DNA from: a virus
Length of the DNA: 64,000 bases
Direction: 5' to 3' (one strand)
Virus record (IMG/VR): IMGVR_UViG_3300032236_001024
Span: 1 to 64,000 of that record
Shown: positions 1,606 to 13,053 of the stretch, in pieces
How positions within the stretch are numbered: position 1 is the stretch's first letter
How the letters are laid out: every line of letters begins with the position of its first letter
Made by a program: the position numbers and the translations under genes
Notes under the pieces: model-generated
Told to the model about the DNA's origin: nothing
Databases searched by the model: none
Seen by the model: only the letters and a program-made list of their open reading frames with translations

Positions 1606-2910
1606 TTAAAATCCTTGTTCTTCTGCAAATTTAATTAGTTGATCAAATCCTTCTTCAGTCTCTAGCTTTTCCATAAACTTTAATTTATTTTTTTCTGAAA
1701 GACTTTCATATAATCTATTTAGTTTTTCTTCTGCCATATTGGCATGTGTTTGTTCATCACCACCAACAGACTTTAATCCTTGTGAAGGAGGGAGAACAAT
1801 TTTTTCTTTTGATACAAGAGGATCAGTTTTTAATTTATTAATACTGTCTTGCATCATATTTACTTTACCAATTGCTTCATGCATATGCTTTGCACGAATC
1901 TTAGCGAGAACTGCACCAGCTACTTTTTCACCTTTTTCTTTTGAACCATAACGAGTTGCAGCATCTTTAGCTATCTTGGCAAAATTCTTACCTTTTTCAC
2001 CAATATCTTTTCCAGCACGAGCATCTTTTGCAGAATATACAGCTTCACCAAGTGGAGGTATAGCTGCACTTTTCTTTCCAATTTCAATTTCTGTTCTTGG
2101 TTGATGACGCTTTACAAGTTCTACTCTTCCATCTTTACCAATTCTTGTGGTAGTTTTAATATCACGAGAAGCAGTGTTTAATGTTCTTACATCAGCCGAT
2201 TCAGCAGCAACTTGAGTTTCTCTACCAGATTTAATTTTTTCTAATGCCTGCTTATGCTTTTGATATTTCATACGAAGATTGTCTGGTATAGGTCTTCCTT
2301 TTTTCTTAAGGAGAGAAATCTGTCTTGATGTTCTTTCAGCCCAAAATTCGTGGAACTGTCTATCTTGTCCAGCTTCTGCCAATTCAACTTCTTCATTCAT
2401 ATTCTGTGCTTTACTGGCAATCCCTTGTCTCTTCTTTGTGTAGATATCATGTAGATGCTTCTTGATTCTAAAATGATCAATTCTATCTTTCACATCATAA
2501 CCGGGATTCTTCATTTCCTTGCTTATAGTATCTACCTTCTTATATAATTCTTTAGTTTTTTTCAAATCTTCTCTGGCTTGTGGTATCATACTTTTAGGTT
2601 TGGCATTTTTATCCACAGCTTCAATAATTTCTACTTCTTCTTTTTTAAAATATTCTTTGGGACGATCACTTTTCATAAGGTCATCATATGACTGTGCATA
2701 TTTTTTTGCTTTTTCAGCATGACGCATTGCTCTATCAATAGAACTTTGATCTTTATTTCTTACACCATAATCATAAAAATAATGAGCATTAGTTACATTA
2801 GACTTTGCAAGTCTTCCATGCTCATCCCATGCTGTATCAGCTTGAGGTTTATCACGAGTAGAAGCAACTTTTGGTCTTAGATATTGATCAAAATCTGGTT
2901 TCTTATCCAT
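1606..2910 (-). CDS. Highly charged head-core protein, putative internal/scaffold protein
   Basis: 434 residues, very rich in Lys, Glu and Asp, predicted mostly helical, no recognisable enzyme motif. It occupies the T4 gene 68 position, between the portal and the prohead protease. It contains at least three matches to the T4 protease consensus (L/I)xE-A/G: EIIEA near residue 97, ELAEA near 180 and PLGEA near 288. This pattern suits a core or internal protein processed during maturation. The product name is inferred from position, composition and cleavage sites. Confidence 0.6.
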   Translation of the reverse strand: MDKKPDFDQYLRPKVASTRDKPQADTAWDEHGRLAKSNVTNAHYFYDYGVRNKDQSSIDRAMRHAEKAKKYAQSYDDLMKSDRPKEYFKKEEVEIIEAVDKNAKPKSMIPQAREDLKKTKELYKKVDTISKEMKNPGYDVKDRIDHFRIKKHLHDIYTKKRQGIASKAQNMNEEVELAEAGQDRQFHEFWAERTSRQISLLKKKGRPIPDNLRMKYQKHKQALEKIKSGRETQVAAESADVRTLNTASRDIKTTTRIGKDGRVELVKRHQPRTEIEIGKKSAAIPPLGEAVYSAKDARAGKDIGEKGKNFAKIAKDAATRYGSKEKGEKVAGAVLAKIRAKHMHEAIGKVNMMQDSINKLKTDPLVSKEKIVLPPSQGLKSVGGDEQTHANMAEEKLNRLYESLSEKNKLKFMEKLETEEGFDQLIKFAEEQGF

Positions 2911-2913
2911 CTC

Positions 2914-4224
2914 TTACTTACCTCTGTTTAAAAAACCACGCTTGTTAAGCGTTGCCCAAGCAATCTTTTTTGCCTTTTCTGGTGATTTACCAGCTTCAAT
3001 TTCACTCTTTTCGATGTGCTTTTCCATACGGTCAACCTTAGCACCTTCTTCGACATGTTCTACTTCTTCAGTAGCCTTTACCTTTGGCTCAGGGAAACCA
3101 TGCTTTTTATCTCCCCACTTCTTAAGAAGTGCAAGATCAATTCCCTTTTTTCTCTTTTCAGAAGTTGGTGCATCATCACCATAATATGCATCACGACTGC
3201 TTGTTTTAGCCTTTTGAATATATCTGGTAGCAAGATCACGAGAAATTTCATGAATGGCTTCACGATAACCTTCATCCATTGATTTCTTGGCAGCTTCTGT
3301 CTTTTCAGCAAATTCAATTACGGCTTGTTCTTCCATAATTCTTTTTACTTCAGTTCTCAAGATTGCCTTAGCAGTATCACATGCATCATCATAATCTTCT
3401 GTGAAATACTCATCTTCAGTTGAAGGATTGATTACAAGATAATTTCCCTTTGTATCTTCATGAACTGAGATCATATGATCGCCAATCTTGAATGACTTAA
3501 CATGTGAGAATACGTTTTCTTCAATCTGTTCAACTTCTTCAGCCATTTCTTTCTTCTTAGTAAGAAGTTCCTTCCAATCAGTCTTTTCTTTCTTCTTCTT
3601 TTCAGGATGATATGGAGCATCTGGATTTGGTTTCTTCTTACCACCAGCTTCATAACGCTTATAATATTCGTCTTCACCCTTAGCTTCTTCGACTGATTCT
3701 ACTTCTTCTTTCTTAAGATACTTGCCAATAACCTTACGTCTATTCTTTAGATAAGAATCAGTTGAGTCAACCTTACCATCGTTGTTAACATCAGAATCTT
3801 CTTTTCCAACTGGATCAAGTGCTGGCTTTTTCTTTTTTCCTTTAGAGTCATAACGAGCTTCATACTCAGCCTGACCTTTCATCTTCCATTCTTTTTCATC
3901 AAGCTGTTCAGTTTCTTCTTCAACTGCTTCAACTTCTTCCTTAACATCTTTATCCTTTTCAGGATAATCATTTGTTACCTTAAGGTTCTTGTCGTACACT
4001 TCCTTGGATTCATCATCTGGACCATTTTCATATGATGCAGTTGGTGGGTCTAACTTACGATCTCTTCCATTGAAAAGAAAATCTTGATCAGTAATTCCTG
4101 GCACCATATCTCTATTCGATGGTTTAACTTCACCATGTAATGCCTTGAAATTTTGTTCGCCTTGTGAAAGAGGCTGTGCAACTTCCATAATAGAACTAAT
4201 AGTGCTGAGTACTGACTTTGCCAT
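2914..4224 (-). CDS. Charged head-core protein with dockerin-like calcium loop
   Basis: 436 residues, strongly acidic/basic. Two imperfect internal repeats begin [15 protein letters not shown] (about residue 120) and [14 protein letters not shown] (about residue 185). Between them is [12 protein letters not shown] (145-156), a dockerin/EF-hand-like calcium-binding loop. The C-terminal 40 residues form a helix pair ([20 protein letters not shown]) that I recall from other aquatic phage structural proteins. It lies in the T4 67/68 slot of the head operon. Likely a prohead core or internal protein; the biochemical role is unknown. Confidence 0.6.
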
Positions 4225-6706: not shown

Positions 6707-8821
6707 TTAGAACTTACCAACAATTTCTTCGAACTCAACACCAGTGCGTACAGCAACGAAGTTAAGCTGGATGAAATTGATTGAACGTGCGGGCTTAATG
6801 TAAATGTCACCTCTGAATTCGTTTCTGTCAATAACTTCTGGAGTATTGTTTGTTGTGTCACAAACAACTCTGAAATCATAGATTCCACGACGACCTTGAA
6901 TGTCACGAAGATATGGTTCTACAAGATTGCGGAATGCTGCTCTTGTAAAATCATCGTTAAATTCAAATAGAGTTGACTTAGCAGCTGTTGCAATTGCTTT
7001 CTCAAGTACGATGAACAATCTACGTACATTGATACGATCAAATGCAGATGGTCTTGAAAGCAATGTCTTATCACCATAAAGAAGCGTTCCCTGTCCTTGT
7101 AGTGTTACTACAGGATTGATTCCGTTACGATAAAGAACATCACGTTCAGTTTTATTTGGATTATAAGAAAGTTTTACAACATTCTTGATAACACCTCTGT
7201 TCAATCCAGCTGGTGAGAACCATGGATCACGAACATTGTCAGTACGAACACAGAGACCAGCAATATCACCATTGAGTGGAACCCAACGATAAACATCATT
7301 GTACTTGTCATACTGATACTTATAGCCAGAATCTAGTACTGCATAAGATGTTGAAGTCAATGCATTTCTGAATGCAAGAACATTGTTCATTTCTTGACCG
7401 GGGGCATTTACTGTGTTATTCAATTCAGGTGAAATAAATGCTACACAATCTTTTCTATATTCACAGATATTATCTATGATATAGTTTGCAAGTGTTTCGC
7501 CAATATTTCCTCTTGACTTACCACCAAGAATCAATGAAACATCTACATCTTCAGATGACTTATACTTGTCATATGCAGTCATTAACTTTGATGTAGAAAT
7601 AGCTGTTTCACTATCACCATCTGCACCATTATTAAATGATAATGATAAATTAGTTGTAATACCTGGTGCAAGAGAAGTATTGTCAGAATTTTTTTCAGTT
7701 GCTTCGAGTGGTCTAGTTGACCATACATAACGTGATCTATTGTTTAGAACATCTCTATAGTAGATCGAACCACCTTGTTCACTCTTGGCATCCTTTGCAA
7801 CAGAAACATTGCTCCAAACTTCAAGAATTTCACCAGGAATTCCTGTAATCTTACCATCTTCGTCTGAAACAACGACATGAATTTCATCTCTTACTGAATT
7901 ATTTGCATTTCTATCATCGACATACTTAGTACTAGTAGGAGCAGTATCTACAGCATTGTGGTATTCCCAATACTTAGTACCAAATGAAGTTGTTGTTCCA
8001 GTAGAAACAAGATTTCCGCTAATAGTAAGGTCATCTTTTTGTCTAAATGTTTCTACAAATGTAAGTGGGAAATATGAATATCCCCATGTATGTGTAGCAT
8101 TTGAAGTTGGAACTGTTACAACACTACCAATACTCTGAATAGTCATATATTGTGTACCAATAGTGCTATTTCCTACAAGAAGCTTATCACCAACAATAAA
8201 TTTTCCGTTTAAATCAGCAGCAGCAACACTAGAAAATGTGTTGGCAAGATGTTGATAAAATACATTTGCTGTAGATGAACCTACAGGCAAACTAAACGAA
8301 TAATAAGTATTTGATGATGAAACAGAAGTATTTGATCCATTATATGCTACAATAGTGCTTTGATAAGCATTTGATGATGGACAAATTGAAATTTTCAATG
8401 AATTTCCATGATGACCAGCATACTTAGCAACAAAGTAAACATTTGCATACGTTGCTGAAGCTTCAAAAGATGATTTTTGTGTCTGATAATCGCTTAAATT
8501 TTTAACTACAATATTGCCAGGAGTTGAAACTCCACTATTTGCATAAGCATTATAAGTAGTTGCAGATGCTGCTCTTGTTACATATAGCTGATTGCCATAT
8601 GCCAAAAAGTTTGCAGCTGTGAAAAATGATTCGTAATTGTTGGCAGTTGGCTTACCAAAAACTGATACTAACTCATCCTCAGAAGAGACAAGAACTCTCT
8701 CTTCGATTGGACCCCATTTGAAAACTCCAGCTGTTCCACCAAAAGTAGAAGAGACTGCAGGAACAATGGTTGTTAGATCAATTTCAGATACGTTAACGCC
8801 TGGGCTAACTTGAAATGGCAT
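6707..8821 (-). CDS. 18: Contractile tail sheath protein, gp18-like
   Basis: 704 residues (T4 gp18 is 659). The N-terminus PFQVSPGVNVSEIDLTTIVP is the classic sheath linker strand. The C-terminal domain contains RNGINPVVTLQGQGTLLYGD, then RLFIVLEKAI and FEFNDDFTRAAFR, conserved in phage sheath proteins. The middle third (about residues 110-340) is the variable surface-exposed insertion. It is preceded by an AGGAGA ribosome site and a late promoter at 8875-8868, and is cotranscribed with tube gene 19. Confidence 0.96.
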   Translation of the reverse strand: MPFQVSPGVNVSEIDLTTIVPAVSSTFGGTAGVFKWGPIEERVLVSSEDELVSVFGKPTANNYESFFTAANFLAYGNQLYVTRAASATTYNAYANSGVSTPGNIVVKNLSDYQTQKSSFEASATYANVYFVAKYAGHHGNSLKISICPSSNAYQSTIVAYNGSNTSVSSSNTYYSFSLPVGSSTANVFYQHLANTFSSVAAADLNGKFIVGDKLLVGNSTIGTQYMTIQSIGSVVTVPTSNATHTWGYSYFPLTFVETFRQKDDLTISGNLVSTGTTTSFGTKYWEYHNAVDTAPTSTKYVDDRNANNSVRDEIHVVVSDEDGKITGIPGEILEVWSNVSVAKDAKSEQGGSIYYRDVLNNRSRYVWSTRPLEATEKNSDNTSLAPGITTNLSLSFNNGADGDSETAISTSKLMTAYDKYKSSEDVDVSLILGGKSRGNIGETLANYIIDNICEYRKDCVAFISPELNNTVNAPGQEMNNVLAFRNALTSTSYAVLDSGYKYQYDKYNDVYRWVPLNGDIAGLCVRTDNVRDPWFSPAGLNRGVIKNVVKLSYNPNKTERDVLYRNGINPVVTLQGQGTLLYGDKTLLSRPSAFDRINVRRLFIVLEKAIATAAKSTLFEFNDDFTRAAFRNLVEPYLRDIQGRRGIYDFRVVCDTTNNTPEVIDRNEFRGDIYIKPARSINFIQLNFVAVRTGVEFEEIVGKF

Positions 8822-8867
8822 TGTTTTCTCCTTTTTATAATAAAAATCATATACTAATTCGTATGAT

Positions 8868-8875
8868 TATTTATA
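8868..8875 (-). promoter_or_regulatory. T4-type late promoter for sheath gene 18
   Basis: Perfect minus-strand TATAAATA in the 60-bp gap between the terminase C-part and gene 18, 46 bp before the sheath start. Confidence 0.65.
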
Positions 8876-8881
8876 AAAACA

Positions 8882-10015
8882 TCAATTTAGCAAAAATCTT
8901 TCGAATTCGCTTGAACTCATAACCTTATCCTCAAAATCATCCTCTCTGCCATCATCTATAATGCCAAATGGAGTGAAATCTTCCTCAACTTCTTCCTCAA
9001 TTCTTCTGCGGATATCAGTATTTGATACATCTTTAAAATAATTTTGACTTACCATCCAAGCAAACAACACCAAACACATTACCAAATCATCATGATGACC
9101 TTCTTCCGCATTATAGGTATTTTTGTCTACCGCATAGGTCGAAAGTTCATTTATTATATCATAATCATTTAAAATTATTTTATCCGATTCAATAAGGGTT
9201 TTTAAGTTAGCGCATCCTATTCTTTTGGTGATTTGGGTTGTTTTTATTCCTAATCTATTTTGATTGCCATCTGTACCTATAGCAGTGCCTTTTCTTCCAC
9301 TCATTCTGGTCATTACTATGTTTTCATATTCCAAATCTTGGTGTAGAATGTTGACAACCTGTGAACCTATATTTATTTCCACTAAAATAGAGGCATCATT
9401 GTAGTATCTGCCAATATTTGCTATCAAGGTAGGGAAAACTAACTGTGACATATTTGCATCTTTAAATGTAGCAACTACTTCATATGGTACTGTAGAACAA
9501 TCAGTAACTACAAGAGCAGACGAATCCATACCCAACCCCTCACTCACATCTACTGTTATTGCATATACATGGTCTTTAATTGGATGCTTATAGATTTTTA
9601 CTTCATGTGGATTGTCGATTGGACGCATATAAACCAATCTGGAAAGTACAGTTGGGTGAATAAGAGTATTAGAAGACCCTAAGAATTCGCAATTGTGTGA
9701 TAAAATATCGTTAGCATAAAACTGCTCATTTTCTACCCCAACAATATCAAAATATTCAAATTCTCCATCTTTATAATCTAAAAAAAATATTTTTGATTTT
9801 TCATTTTTACATATGATAATGTCGTCGTTCTTAAGATCAATAGATTTTTTCCACCCATCTACAGTCATAATTCTATGGGTAAGAGAACATTTTAATTGAC
9901 TACCATTTTCTAAATAAATTTCAATTTGTCCATTTTTTTTAATTTTTTGTACACCTTTAAAAGGTAAATAGCCTTCAGATGTTTCTATTAATATATTATT
10001 ATTTTTAAAGAACAT
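8882..10015 (-). CDS. 17: Large terminase C-terminal part: split-intein IntC plus nuclease domain (gp17 C-extein)
   Basis: 377 residues. Residues 1-108 are the C-terminal fragment of a split intein: a B-block-like segment with LKCSLTHRIM (Thr/His near residues 46-47), then EQFYANDILSHN ending in the expected His-Asn before Cys109. From Cys109 on it is the gp17 nuclease domain, with VDVSEG (Asp156), VEIN and HHDDLVM supplying the acidic catalytic residues. The IntC start MFFKNNNILI closely resembles the AceL-TerL intein fragment. An AGGA site lies before the ATG, inside the end of the HNH gene, so it is translated on its own. Protein trans-splicing with the N-part should restore a continuous 535-residue terminase. 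Confidence 0.9.
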   Translation of the reverse strand: MFFKNNNILIETSEGYLPFKGVQKIKKNGQIEIYLENGSQLKCSLTHRIMTVDGWKKSIDLKNDDIIICKNEKSKIFFLDYKDGEFEYFDIVGVENEQFYANDILSHNCEFLGSSNTLIHPTVLSRLVYMRPIDNPHEVKIYKHPIKDHVYAITVDVSEGLGMDSSALVVTDCSTVPYEVVATFKDANMSQLVFPTLIANIGRYYNDASILVEINIGSQVVNILHQDLEYENIVMTRMSGRKGTAIGTDGNQNRLGIKTTQITKRIGCANLKTLIESDKIILNDYDIINELSTYAVDKNTYNAEEGHHDDLVMCLVLFAWMVSQNYFKDVSNTDIRRRIEEEVEEDFTPFGIIDDGREDDFEDKVMSSSEFERFLLN

Positions 10016-10565
10016 TTCGTTTTCCTGTAATTATATTATATAATTGTGTTTCAGTTACGTTATATTCCTTGTGAAATTCTTTAGAAAAAGCTCTCTCATA
10101 AGTAATTTTTCTTCCATTTTTTGATATATCGCCTACCCCTTTTAAAGTAATTTTATTATTATATTTTTCTAAAATTAGACAACATTCATGATCAGTAATT
10201 TTAACTTTGCCAAATCTTTTTCCTTTTCTATTATTTTTAATTTCTTCTGAAAAAGAATACTTTTTTCCTTTATTCCAAGGAATTGTTCCTTTTGGAACCC
10301 CGCCAATATTTGGTCTTTTCTTTCCCTTTTGTAAATTTGAAGAATAATCTGGACCAAATCCAATTCTTTTAGCAATTAATGCAGCTGCAAACCAATCTTC
10401 TTGCTCTAAATGAATATCAAAATGTTCTCTTATTGTAACTAATTGTAAATTTTCTATGTTATTATTTTTATGATTACCATCTATATGATGTATTTCATAA
10501 GAAAACCCATTTTCATCAGTTGGTATTTTGCCGTGTGTATTTTCCCAAATTTTTCTATAATGCAT
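10005..10565 (-). CDS. Free-standing HNH homing endonuclease between the terminase halves
   Basis: 186 residues. The HNH core is EIHHIDGNHKNNNIENLQLV (His26/His27, Asn36 and Asn39) followed by EHFDIH. The second half has a NUMOD3-like stretch (PWNKGKKYSFSEEIKNNRKG) and a C-terminal helix-turn-helix-like segment (NVTETQLYNIITGKRN), as in DNA-binding modules of phage homing endonucleases. It lies 25 bp after the N-part and overlaps the start of the C-part by 11 bp. It probably cleaves intein-free terminase genes and so spreads the whole cassette. The target site cannot be read from the sequence. Confidence 0.88.
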   Translation of the reverse strand: MHYRKIWENTHGKIPTDENGFSYEIHHIDGNHKNNNIENLQLVTIREHFDIHLEQEDWFAAALIAKRIGFGPDYSSNLQKGKKRPNIGGVPKGTIPWNKGKKYSFSEEIKNNRKGKRFGKVKITDHECCLILEKYNNKITLKGVGDISKNGRKITYERAFSKEFHKEYNVTETQLYNIITGKRNVL

Positions 10566-10590
10566 ATAATTTAATCCTACAAAATTGCAT

Positions 10591-11475
10591 TCATAATATA
10601 TTTATAATTTCTTTGATTGCAACTTTTTTGGAAATGCCATCTATTGAAATATTAATTTCTGTATCACCATCTAAACATTCAAACTCTTGACGGAACTGGT
10701 CAACAGAAGTATTACGGATAGTCTCTACTTTCCATGCTTCATCTCGACCGGGAACATCTGACCAATGAACGTCAACACGAGCATAAGAATTTTCATTATT
10801 AACAGAGTCCATCCAAATTTTATAGAACAAGTTCATTCCATTTGGAGTAGAAGTTATCAGAAGCTTTGATGTGTTACCAGACGAAATAGTGGGGAATACT
10901 GAGGCAAAAAACGTATCTTGGATATTTCTTGGAACGAATGCAAATTCGTCAAGATAAATCAAGTTATAGGATTGACCACGGATAGCAGATGATGAGGTAG
11001 CAGATGCAAGTATTTTAGAGCCATTTTCCAATTCAATATTTCCCTTATTCCACTCAACAACACCTTGCTGCATCCACTTTGGCAACCATTCATAAGCGAG
11101 TTGGACTCTCGACAAAATTTCTTTTGCCTGAACTTGTTTATTGGCAAGAACAGCAATGTTATAATTTTCATTAAATAATATTTTATGTAAAAGATAACCA
11201 ACGACGCCTGTAGTTTTTCCAACCTGACGAGGCATTTTACATATGGTAAAACGATTATCGTCAAATACCTTAAACATCTTTTTCTGATATTCATAAGGTT
11301 TAAATGATACAAGACCTTTATCAACACTTACAATTTTAACATAATTTTCACAAAAATAATTAACATCTTTAGCGCATTTCACATATTCTAGAATTTGATC
11401 TGCCGTAAATTCTAATGTTACATCTTTACGCTTTAGATTTTTATTACCAAGATATATTTCGTTCGTATTACTCAT
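10591..11475 (-). CDS. 17: Large terminase N-terminal part: ATPase domain plus split-intein IntN (gp17 N-extein)
   Basis: 294 residues. Residues 1-266 are the packaging ATPase: Walker A MPRQVGKTT (Lys87), Walker B LIYLDEF (Asp176-Glu177) and coupling motif LLITSTPNG. At QFRQEFE-Cys267 the terminase sequence stops and an intein A block begins (CLDGDTEINI); 28 residues later a TGA stop ends the frame. T4 gp17 continues at the equivalent position QEHT-CAFEGT, which matches the start of the downstream gene (CEFLGS). The gene is therefore a split-intein half and not a simple truncation. It lies 7 bp after the ParB-like gene. Confidence 0.92.
   Translation of the reverse strand: MSNTNEIYLGNKNLKRKDVTLEFTADQILEYVKCAKDVNYFCENYVKIVSVDKGLVSFKPYEYQKKMFKVFDDNRFTICKMPRQVGKTTGVVGYLLHKILFNENYNIAVLANKQVQAKEILSRVQLAYEWLPKWMQQGVVEWNKGNIELENGSKILASATSSSAIRGQSYNLIYLDEFAFVPRNIQDTFFASVFPTISSGNTSKLLITSTPNGMNLFYKIWMDSVNNENSYARVDVHWSDVPGRDEAWKVETIRNTSVDQFRQEFECLDGDTEINISIDGISKKVAIKEIINIL
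10599..10606 (-). promoter_or_regulatory. Late-promoter octamer at the end of the terminase N-part
   Basis: Perfect minus-strand TATAAATA overlapping the last IntN codons, 34 bp before the HNH start. It could drive the HNH and terminase C-part independently. Because it is also coding sequence (Ile-Ile-Asn-Ile), chance occurrence is possible. Confidence 0.45.
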
Positions 11476-11482
11476 AATTTAA

Positions 11483-11866
11483 TCAATCTCTATCAGTAAC
11501 GTGATACGCCCACATATGAGTTTCACCTTTTTTCAAAGCATCTCTATATCTATGATGACCATCAACAATTTTCCCATTTTCAATTACTATAGGTGGTCTT
11601 GTTTCTGAAGACATTTTACTATATTTTGCTTGTTTTTTATTACTAGGAATATTATGGTCAGCATCACCAGATTTTATATCACTTAATGGTGTTTTCTTTA
11701 ATTTTGCTTCAGCACCACGAAAATAATCAACCATGAGACCATGATCAACATCATCAGAAGATGTTCTTTCTATATGATCTGCAATATCATGTTCATCCTT
11801 CAGATGATGTTCATATCCTTTAGGAGGTTCATTACTTTCAAATATAAAATTTTTAAATGTCTTCAT
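11483..11866 (-). CDS. ParB-like nuclease/sulfiredoxin-fold protein inserted between terminase genes
   Basis: 127 residues. The C-terminal half contains PPIVIENGKIVDGHHRYRDA (about residues 90-110), the hallmark of the ParB N-terminal/sulfiredoxin-like fold (substrate loop, then GxHRxxA). The N-terminus MKTFKNFIFE followed by a His/Asp-rich stretch is a leader type I associate with aquatic phage proteins. It lies between small terminase 16 (14-bp overlap) and large terminase 17, a pair that is adjacent in T4. The fold assignment is good; DNA-binding, nuclease or CTPase activity is not established. Confidence 0.7.
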   Translation of the reverse strand: MKTFKNFIFESNEPPKGYEHHLKDEHDIADHIERTSSDDVDHGLMVDYFRGAEAKLKKTPLSDIKSGDADHNIPSNKKQAKYSKMSSETRPPIVIENGKIVDGHHRYRDALKKGETHMWAYHVTDRD

Positions 11867-12260
11867 TTGCCTTATCTTTTATCATTTTTAATAGTTCAGT
11901 GGATGATCCAACAAACAAATTATTATTCACTGTCTTATTGCCTTCATTGTTATTATCAGGCTTTGTCAATTCTTTGTTCTTCTTAGCCAAATCCATCAGG
12001 TCTTTGTTAGCATCAGCAAGTGTTTTGATAAGATTAGTAACAACCTCAAATGCTCTTGGCGACTCAGATTGTCTGGCAATATCCACAATATCTTCTAGGG
12101 CTGATGTGCCTTTTTCAATAATGTCGTACATATTTTGACGGGCATATTCATAGTCGTTCTTTTCTGTTTTTGCTGGCAAGAAAACAGGATTTGGTGCAGG
12201 AGGAATTGGAGGAATTCCAAGAGAATTTGATATTATATCTTTATTTGGCATTTGAATCAC
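11853..12260 (-). CDS. 16: Small terminase subunit, gp16-like
   Basis: 135 residues (T4 gp16 is 164). The central helical region YEYARQNMYDIIEKGTSALE followed by SESPRAFEVVTNLIKTLADA matches the coiled-coil oligomerisation core of T4-like small terminases (RRNMHFQQQM, ADSPRHMEVFATLM in T4). A Pro-rich N-terminal segment precedes it and an Asn/Lys-rich tail follows. The start overlaps the end of gene 15 by 20 bp, so translation is probably coupled. It regulates and stimulates the large terminase encoded two genes downstream. Confidence 0.88.
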   Translation of the reverse strand: MIQMPNKDIISNSLGIPPIPPAPNPVFLPAKTEKNDYEYARQNMYDIIEKGTSALEDIVDIARQSESPRAFEVVTNLIKTLADANKDLMDLAKKNKELTKPDNNNEGNKTVNNNLFVGSSTELLKMIKDKANEDI

Positions 12261-13053
12261 TCACAGTTACGATGAACCCATAAGAATCTGTTTCATCAAT
12301 TTGAGAAAGAGCAACTGATAATTCTGCATTAGATGTTGGTTCACCATCTACTGTAAGCCCAGGTCTAATCAAAGTAGTAACAATACCAGTATTTGCAGTC
12401 GTATCAGGATATATTCTAACATCAGCAATCTTAATAATTTTACTTTCTGTGACAGGACCATAGAAATAACATTTCATAGTAAATGAAAGAGAAAATGTTA
12501 AAACTCTTCTTACTGTAAAATCAGAAGCATAACTATCATCAATTTCTACATTGTCTAATACAATTGGTATATCAGTCGCATTATCATAATCAGACAAAAG
12601 TCTTGCAGTTACTGTCCATTCTGGTGTAAAATAAGGAAGTATTTGTTCTACAATTCTTAATCCATCTTCCATTGTTTTCACCATAATATCTAGTCTAAAA
12701 CCTAGATTATATGGAGCAGGATTATATACTTTCTTGTAAGTATTAATGCCATTTATTTCTTTTCTAGAAGCAATTTTATTAATTGTTGAAAGTTTTCTAC
12801 TAGGATCATAATTTACTGAAGTAATCTCAAATGACATGCGTGGTAATCTAATTGCAGTTAATGCTGCAGCTTCTGGATTATCTTCAATACGAGCAAGAAA
12901 TTTTTCTCTAGGCCCATATGCAATAGGAATTTTAAATGACTGTTCAAGAACACCAGCATCATTTACTCTTTCAATTTTGATATTATTGAAAAGAGTGCCA
13001 AATATGACAACATATTTTTTAAATAGTGAATTATAAAATGGTGATGATAACAT
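12241..13053 (-). CDS. 15: Tail sheath stabiliser and completion protein, gp15-like
   Basis: 270 residues, almost the same as T4 gp15 (272). The N-terminus MLSSPFYNSLFKKYVVIFGT parallels T4 MFGYFYNSSFRRYATLMGDL, and IVEQILPYFTPEWTVT parallels IVEQILPYFQPHFNTT. This hexameric protein caps the tube and sheath at the head-proximal end. Gene order 14-15-16 is that of T4, and the start touches the end of gene 14 by one base. Confidence 0.94.
   Translation of the reverse strand: MLSSPFYNSLFKKYVVIFGTLFNNIKIERVNDAGVLEQSFKIPIAYGPREKFLARIEDNPEAAALTAIRLPRMSFEITSVNYDPSRKLSTINKIASRKEINGINTYKKVYNPAPYNLGFRLDIMVKTMEDGLRIVEQILPYFTPEWTVTARLLSDYDNATDIPIVLDNVEIDDSYASDFTVRRVLTFSLSFTMKCYFYGPVTESKIIKIADVRIYPDTTANTGIVTTLIRPGLTVDGEPTSNAELSVALSQIDETDSYGFIVTVSDSNAK

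Follow-up and report, generated by a model that had tools for sequence, protein, structure and literature searches.

The terL gene of a T4-like phage, which encodes the large terminase, very probably houses a mobile split-intein element. The gene occupies positions 8,882 to 11,475 of a 64,000-nucleotide stretch (the window; positions 1 to 64,000 of IMG/VR record IMGVR_UViG_3300032236_001024) that is part of a 202,141-bp virus record. At the sequence level terL is cut in two, the cut is flanked by two class-1 intein parts, an HNH gene lies between them, an allele without the insert exists and the element has moved between lineages. Sequence and a structure model strongly predict that the TerL halves are trans-spliced to one protein, and the HNH enzyme probably drives the spread of the insert as a whole to this exact site in other viruses.

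An HNH gene lies between two halves of terL and of an intein

The locus consists of three open reading frames (ORFs): the TerL N-terminal part with an N-terminal intein fragment (IntN), a free-standing HNH gene, and a C-terminal intein fragment (IntC) with the TerL C-terminal part. The features are as follows.

10591-11475, minus strand: TerL-N+IntN ORF, 266+28 aa
10678..11475, minus strand: TerL N-extein (ATPase part), 266 codons, ending in RQEFE; Pfam Terminase_6N, E = 3.5e-24
10594..10677, minus strand: IntN, 28 codons (CLDGDTEI...NIL), stop at 10591-10593
10005..10565, minus strand: HNH homing-type endonuclease gene, 186 aa; Pfam HNH_3, E = 9.2e-13
10008..10217, minus strand: C-terminal domain (CTD) of the HNH enzyme, spanning residues ~117-186 and probably recognizing the site; shared with same-site GIY-YIG enzymes only
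9692..10015, minus strand: IntC, 108 codons, with block-B H47, D90 and C-terminal H107-N108; invariant residues and fold match
8882..9691, minus strand: TerL C-extein (RNase H-like nuclease), 269 codons plus stop, first residue Cys+1; Pfam Terminase_6C, E = 4.3e-11, and Foldseek match to T4/RB49 gp17
8882-10015, minus strand: IntC+TerL-C ORF, 108+269 aa
9692..10677, minus strand: whole inserted element (IntN, HNH gene and IntC), 986 bp, exactly absent from contig L017

The interruption falls between TerL residues 266 and 267. The joined exteins give 535 residues that align to T4 gp17 over almost the full length, and the alignment of the N-extein reaches gp17 residue 353. The insert length is not a multiple of three. 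A previous sequence-only reading had described a large terminase split around an HNH gene, a 28-residue IntN beginning with CLDGDTEI, a 108-residue IntC ending in ILSHN before Cys and a spliced product of 535 residues, and all of these are found in the minus-strand ORFs. It had also equated the QEFE-CEFLG junction with QEHT-CAFEG in T4. The equivalent site is indeed T4 353|354, but the T4 residue was misquoted: gp17 reads QEHT|AAFEG (residues 353|354 in 3ezk), with Ala at +1.

Stops and frames are identical in three independent metagenome contigs (L001-L003), so the layout is not a sequencing error. Pfam matches in both TerL halves and in the HNH protein, together with the PDB intein matches of IntC, show that the arrangement is not due to chance. 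An in-frame cis intein or a frameshift product in the window was considered and rejected, as the IntN, HNH and IntC frames are separate and the stops are kept in independent contigs.

The surrounding genes are those of a T4-like myovirus, with the terminase small subunit upstream and the tail sheath, tube and portal genes downstream. In the window, terS and terL are separated by a small gene with a ParB-like nuclease domain (11483-11866, minus strand) that L001-L003 lack. The 202,141-bp record has neither another intein nor another HNH relative of this kind. It also contains no psbA, which leaves a cyanobacterial host neither supported nor excluded.

The intein halves retain the splicing residues and fold

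Position 1 of IntN is a conserved Cys that is replaced by Ser in some relatives. This residue sits outside the alignment of 24 IntC-TerL-C proteins, in which block-B His47, Asp90, His107-Asn108 and Cys+1 are invariant at identities down to 36%. By sequence, IntC matches the PDB inteins Cat (E = 1e-5) and gp41-1 (E = 5e-5). An AlphaFold2 model of IntC-TerL-C has a predicted local distance difference test score of 78. Foldseek matched its C-terminal part to T4/RB49 gp17 and its N-terminal part to the gp41-1 and Cat inteins (6qaz, E = 5e-8; 6dsl, E = 1e-7). The ratio of nonsynonymous to synonymous substitution rates (dN/dS) of IntC between the window and contig L002 is 0.02, indicating strong purifying selection. 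Cys1, the block-B His, the terminal His-Asn, the +1 nucleophile and the HINT fold of the IntC model are the features of a class-1 split intein. The 28-residue IntN with its own stop (range ~15-40 aa) and the IntC with its own start are those of an atypical split.

In the proposed mechanism the two polypeptides are made separately, and IntN would dock into the nearly complete IntC fold. Cys1, the block-B His, the Asp, the penultimate His, the Asn and Cys+1 would then drive trans-splicing to the 535-residue TerL.

An empty allele exists and the element has moved between lineages

The sequence-only reading had proposed a search for intein-free alleles in relatives, and a precise one was found. 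The terL gene of L017 lacks the insert, aligns without gaps over 1608/1608 nt at 96.0% identity and has flanks that are 94-96% identical. Each of the best 80 relatives retrieved with the joined exteins gives a single continuous match, as expected of intein-free alleles, and Cys is kept at +1 in 74 of the 76 that can be scored. The two exceptions, L026 and L027, have Thr at +1 (QEFETEFLG) and might be unable to host the intein.

The element of L002 is 93.8% identical to that of the window at the nucleotide level and the exteins are 83-84% identical. Synonymous divergence (dS) between the two is 0.21 for HNH, 0.50 for IntC and 0.06 for IntN, compared to 1.11 and 1.32 for the exteins. The dS of the element is far below that of the exteins, so the element moved horizontally, and more recently than the lineages split. 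Occupied and empty alleles that coexist, and an element that has diverged less than its flanks, characterize a mobile element.

The HNH enzyme has a C-terminal domain confined to this site

The catalytic residues H26, H27 and N39 are invariant in the HNH alignment, and the first 78 residues share 47% identity with I-TevIII-type endonucleases of T4-like phages. The gene is under purifying selection (dN/dS = 0.11, window versus L002). The CTD had no match in Pfam or PDB, and the model of the HNH protein had no fold match in PDB. A profile of ten HNH CTDs, run against the 4,761 ORFs of every retrieved locus, matched only homing endonuclease genes (HEGs) that belong to this element, among them GIY-YIG enzymes with E values down to 6.5e-17. 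A CTD search of 50,697 phage records gave ten matches at E ≤ 1, and all ten belong to the terL split intein of Vibrio phages. All 25 CTD loci in a scan of viral contigs also lie within a terL split-intein element; the query here was a narrower alignment, the alignment of CTDs from all classes being too divergent. No CTD relative was found in 84,980 cellular genomes.

The GIY-YIG enzyme of L208 and the HNH enzyme of the window align over their C-terminal ~113 residues with a score of 239 (at most 82 in shuffles), and their N-terminal catalytic halves are unrelated. The simplest reading of these sequences is a constant target-recognition part on which HNH and GIY-YIG catalytic parts have been exchanged. 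Domain exchange among phage HEGs is already known in general (PMC10448857), and the added point is the restriction of the CTD to a single target site. The existence of an empty allele and a site-restricted CTD are the basis for predicting that the HNH enzyme cleaves empty terL. It would cut empty alleles in co-infected cells, with the CTD guiding it to the conserved DNA that encodes QEFE-CEFLG, and repair would copy the element in.

In L163 and L180 the region before the HEG (element position ~82-115) matches the terL homing site almost perfectly, at up to 16/17 nt and with similarity to +29. The gene that follows encodes a CTD whose nuclease domain has been lost. This copy of the site could be an operator, or it could be left over from gene fracturing.

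One terL residue hosts a family of elements

Inteins at the same terL residue were sought by tblastn over the phage records and by a profile scan of viral contigs. About 70 viral loci were recovered, some of them in isolated Vibrio, Providencia and Serratia phages. The full genomic context that the sequence-only reading noted is visible at these loci as well, and is not special to the window. The accompanying nuclease is HNH, GIY-YIG, Vsr-like or absent, and the loci have the following layouts.

Free HNH gene: window, L101, L110-L127, L130, L205, L206
Free GIY-YIG gene: Providencia PSTRCR_127, Serratia 92A1, L151, L158, L159, L167, L173, L179, L189, L208, L215
GIY-YIG fused in frame to IntN: Vibrio VP-1, K469 and 1.244; L185
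HNH fused to IntC: L177
DUF559/MTES_1575-type nuclease, by Pfam: L137, L162, L169, L174
DUF559/MTES_1575-type nuclease, assigned by C-terminal similarity instead of Pfam: L143, L149
Split intein without a nuclease: Vibrio EniLVp02, L014, L115, L133, L155, L170, L175, among others
Contiguous mini-intein: L166, L178, L182, L183

Ser1 replaces Cys1 in several of the loci with DUF559/MTES_1575-type nucleases. Nuclease type changes at least 16 times on the IntC tree, compared to a mean of 27.9 on shuffling, which makes it a trait that is in part inherited and in part exchanged.

Several loci depart from these layouts. In L187 (2063-4717) terL is one 882-aa ORF that runs through IntN and IntC, and a GIY-YIG+NUMOD3+CTD gene (2898-3530) is located out of frame inside the intein. 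This hidden gene resembles the hidden HNH of the ShiLan element (PMC11855218). Vibrio phage VP-1 (L008, 843-4188) has two terL inteins, one contiguous at Walker A (SGK|C) and the other the split intein whose IntN is fused to GIY-YIG. Campylobacter phages CP39 and PT14_12670_16 (L005, L012) have a gene composed of IntC followed by the TerL C-terminal part at another terL position (DECAF-type site). The N-terminal TerL half is not adjacent, and terL seems to be divided between distant loci. In Campylobacter phage IBB_35 (L010) terL has at least two intein-like insertions, together with an annotated MobE-like ORF that starts with IntC. L122/L212 have a rearranged terL with an empty-type start that joins the N- and C-exteins, followed by a truncated HNH, IntC and a C-extein with a deletion. 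This is possibly a recombination by-product or an assembly chimera.

A putative late promoter sits in a predicted hairpin before the HNH gene

The region from the IntN codons to the HNH start contains four overlapping or adjoining features.

10614..10631, minus strand: 5' hairpin arm, inside the IntN codons; RNAalifold and pair counts over 13 elements
10599..10606, minus strand: TATAAATA, putative T4-type late promoter located in the loop, 33 nt ahead of the HNH start
10576..10593, minus strand: 3' hairpin arm, resembling the terL homing site at 14/18 positions, a resemblance no greater than pairing alone predicts
10573..10579, minus strand: putative HNH ribosome-binding site, TAGGATT

The 3' arm adjoins and overlaps the HNH ribosome-binding sequence. 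TATAAATA is present at 8/8 positions in 11 of 13 HNH elements. Seven of its nine copies in the window are 5-46 nt upstream of a same-strand gene start, compared to 2.4% of random positions. RNAalifold finds 16 pairs across the 13 elements, seven of them with compensatory changes. In the 18-pair helix 85% of cells are paired and the covariation is 0.224, compared to 0.119 when shuffled (0/500) and at most 0.105 in slid controls. Single-sequence stability is strong in L123, L124, L101 and L127 (z = -4 to -6). Covariation and sequence support the predicted hairpin. They place a putative late promoter 5' of an HEG within a hairpin that covers the ribosome-binding site, as in the I-TevI type of control. 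The precedent for this combination is I-TevI/II/III (PMC2988022), and a literature search found no paper linking split inteins with hairpin or late-promoter control.

Expression of the HNH gene probably relies mainly on a late promoter of its own, because read-through terL mRNA would fold the hairpin over the HNH ribosome-binding region. A late transcript beginning immediately 3' of TATAAATA would lack the 5' arm.

The IntC start signal is located inside the HNH gene

The end of the HNH gene and the beginning of IntC share 11 bp. The Shine-Dalgarno sequence for IntC-TerL-C, AGGA (10023..10026, minus strand; AGGAAAACGAAATG), lies within the HNH coding sequence, and translation of IntC-TerL-C is predicted to start within the 3' end of HNH. 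Loss of HNH would therefore tend to damage an essential half-gene, and the overlap should make the nuclease hard to lose. HEG-less relatives show that nuclease loss is still possible.

Alternative explanations

The insert could be conceived as a group I or II intron with an HNH gene: excising these 986 nt from RNA would yield an identical TerL, phage introns often carry HNH_3 genes and introns in terL are known (ICP1, PMC10448857). Rfam gave no intron match at E ≤ 5 across 8000-12500, the ends of the insert encode conserved intein motifs, and IntC has an intein fold and evolves as a protein. Relatives (L166, L182, L183) have contiguous in-frame mini-inteins at the same site, and we consider an intron extremely improbable. 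The junction at T4 353|354 is near the boundary of the ATPase and nuclease domains, so the two TerL domains are separately encoded. They might function unspliced, like nrdA split by mobE in phage Aeh1, with the intein halves as relics. Relics would decay, and the splicing residues and Cys+1 are retained across dozens of lineages with IntC under strong purifying selection, which makes unspliced function very unlikely. The split intein could also be real and the HNH gene an unrelated passenger that mobilizes nothing. HEG-less split versions persist (L014, L115, L133, L155, L170, L175) and the IntC tree shows repeated switches of HEG type (16). Against a passenger, the CTD is confined to this site under two nuclease types. 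Purifying selection acts on HNH, which ranks with the least diverged parts when the window is compared to L002 (dS = 0.21); this explanation is unlikely. The fractured-gene arrangement with a homing endonuclease recognized in the sequence-only reading is thus upheld by intact intein residues, the intein fold, the empty allele, horizontal transfer and the lack of intron RNA in the Rfam search.

The homing-site look-alike before the HNH gene raises the question of whether the HNH protein represses its own promoter by binding there, as I-TevI does. The best match of each element to its own homing site is at position 77-86, just 5' of the HEG, in all 13 HNH elements. Stronger copies without a hairpin occur in CTD-bearing L163, L180, L167 and L208, and none of the eight elements without a CTD has a strong copy. 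In the HNH clade the hairpin by itself accounts for the resemblance (12.5 against 12.8 of 18 identities), and where positions are unpaired the homing-site base is not favored (12/30, p = 0.28). An operator is possible, and we regard it as doubtful.

Several points weigh against a mobile split-intein element that works as proposed. Splicing, cleavage and regulation are steps that we infer. A single TATAAATA match is only marginal in AT-rich sequence (p ~0.05), and the hairpin of the window sequence has modest stability (z ~-0.9 to -1.5). An operator role is unproven because hairpin pairing alone explains the look-alike in the HNH clade. Differences from L017 cluster at the junction, with 24 of 64 (37.5%) within 203 nt, a value reached by 0/4000 shuffles. 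Control allele pairs have a mean of 19% and a maximum of 33% of their differences in the same region. This signal of co-conversion is weak and only suggestive because the region is variable in control pairs too, and co-conversion was rejected as strong proof of recent homing.

Significance and comparison with known systems

The wider comparison adds a precise empty allele, nuclease exchange on a site-restricted domain and a late-promoter hairpin. On balance we favor the view that one T4-like terL site hosts a composite split-intein family in which the recognition domain is kept, the catalytic domain is swapped and the HNH branch is timed by a hairpin-embedded late promoter. By analogy, this would place the control scheme of T4 group I introns inside a protein-splicing element. 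The loci supply the natural context for atypically split TerL inteins, which are protein-labeling tools, and offer ~40 distinct natural homologues to mine. They are also an unusually clean case for the origin and persistence of split inteins. A single site shows inteins that are contiguous, split, fused to a nuclease or free of one. It also has an empty allele that is nearly identical, and the nuclease gene contains the signal from which the essential C-half starts. Swapping of HNH and GIY-YIG parts on a constant site-restricted domain makes modular homing-endonuclease evolution directly testable.

The closest known inteins are AceL-TerL, GOS-TerL and Cat-TerL (PMC11766414; Cat PDB 6dsl), which share the terL host gene and have homologous IntC sequence and fold. 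IntN is 25-37 aa in the known TerL group (PMC11766414) and 28 aa in the window, and IntC is ~104-108 aa in AceL/GOS/Cat-TerL and the window alike. Unlike them, the window has a native genome context and an interposed HNH gene, and its splicing is predicted. IntC is only 30% identical over the aligned part to Cat IntC (AceL/GOS consensus), and the sequence-only reading was right to see a homologue of AceL-TerL and wrong to call the resemblance close.

Fractured genes were reportedly described by Dassa et al. 2009 as split intein halves around a free-standing HEG in an essential phage gene, and their HEGs are said to belong to the EDxHD family. The window has the same layout, an HNH_3 ORF between two split-intein halves, with a nuclease of another family (I-TevIII-like HNH). 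DUF559/MTES_1575-type nucleases occur only in relatives (L137, L162, L169, L174), and other same-site relatives carry GIY-YIG nucleases. The jumbo phage MIJ3 (PMC6892783) also has a split intein with an HNH gene between the halves; its host gene is PolB and the intein is a different one.

Providencia PSTRCR_127, Serratia 92A1 and Vibrio VP-1, K469, 1.244 and EniLVp02 have an intein at the terL position of the window. Their nucleases range from free GIY-YIG (PSTRCR_127, 92A1) through GIY-YIG fused to IntN (VP-1, K469, 1.244) to none (EniLVp02), and their terL genes are annotated merely as terminase or hypothetical. I-TevIII and I-TevI/II (PMC2988022) are alike in the I-TevIII-like HNH amino terminus and in the late promoter and hairpin that sequesters the ribosome-binding site before the gene. 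Unlike these group I intron enzymes, the HNH enzyme of the window is located in a split intein, has a different CTD and is predicted to target terL.

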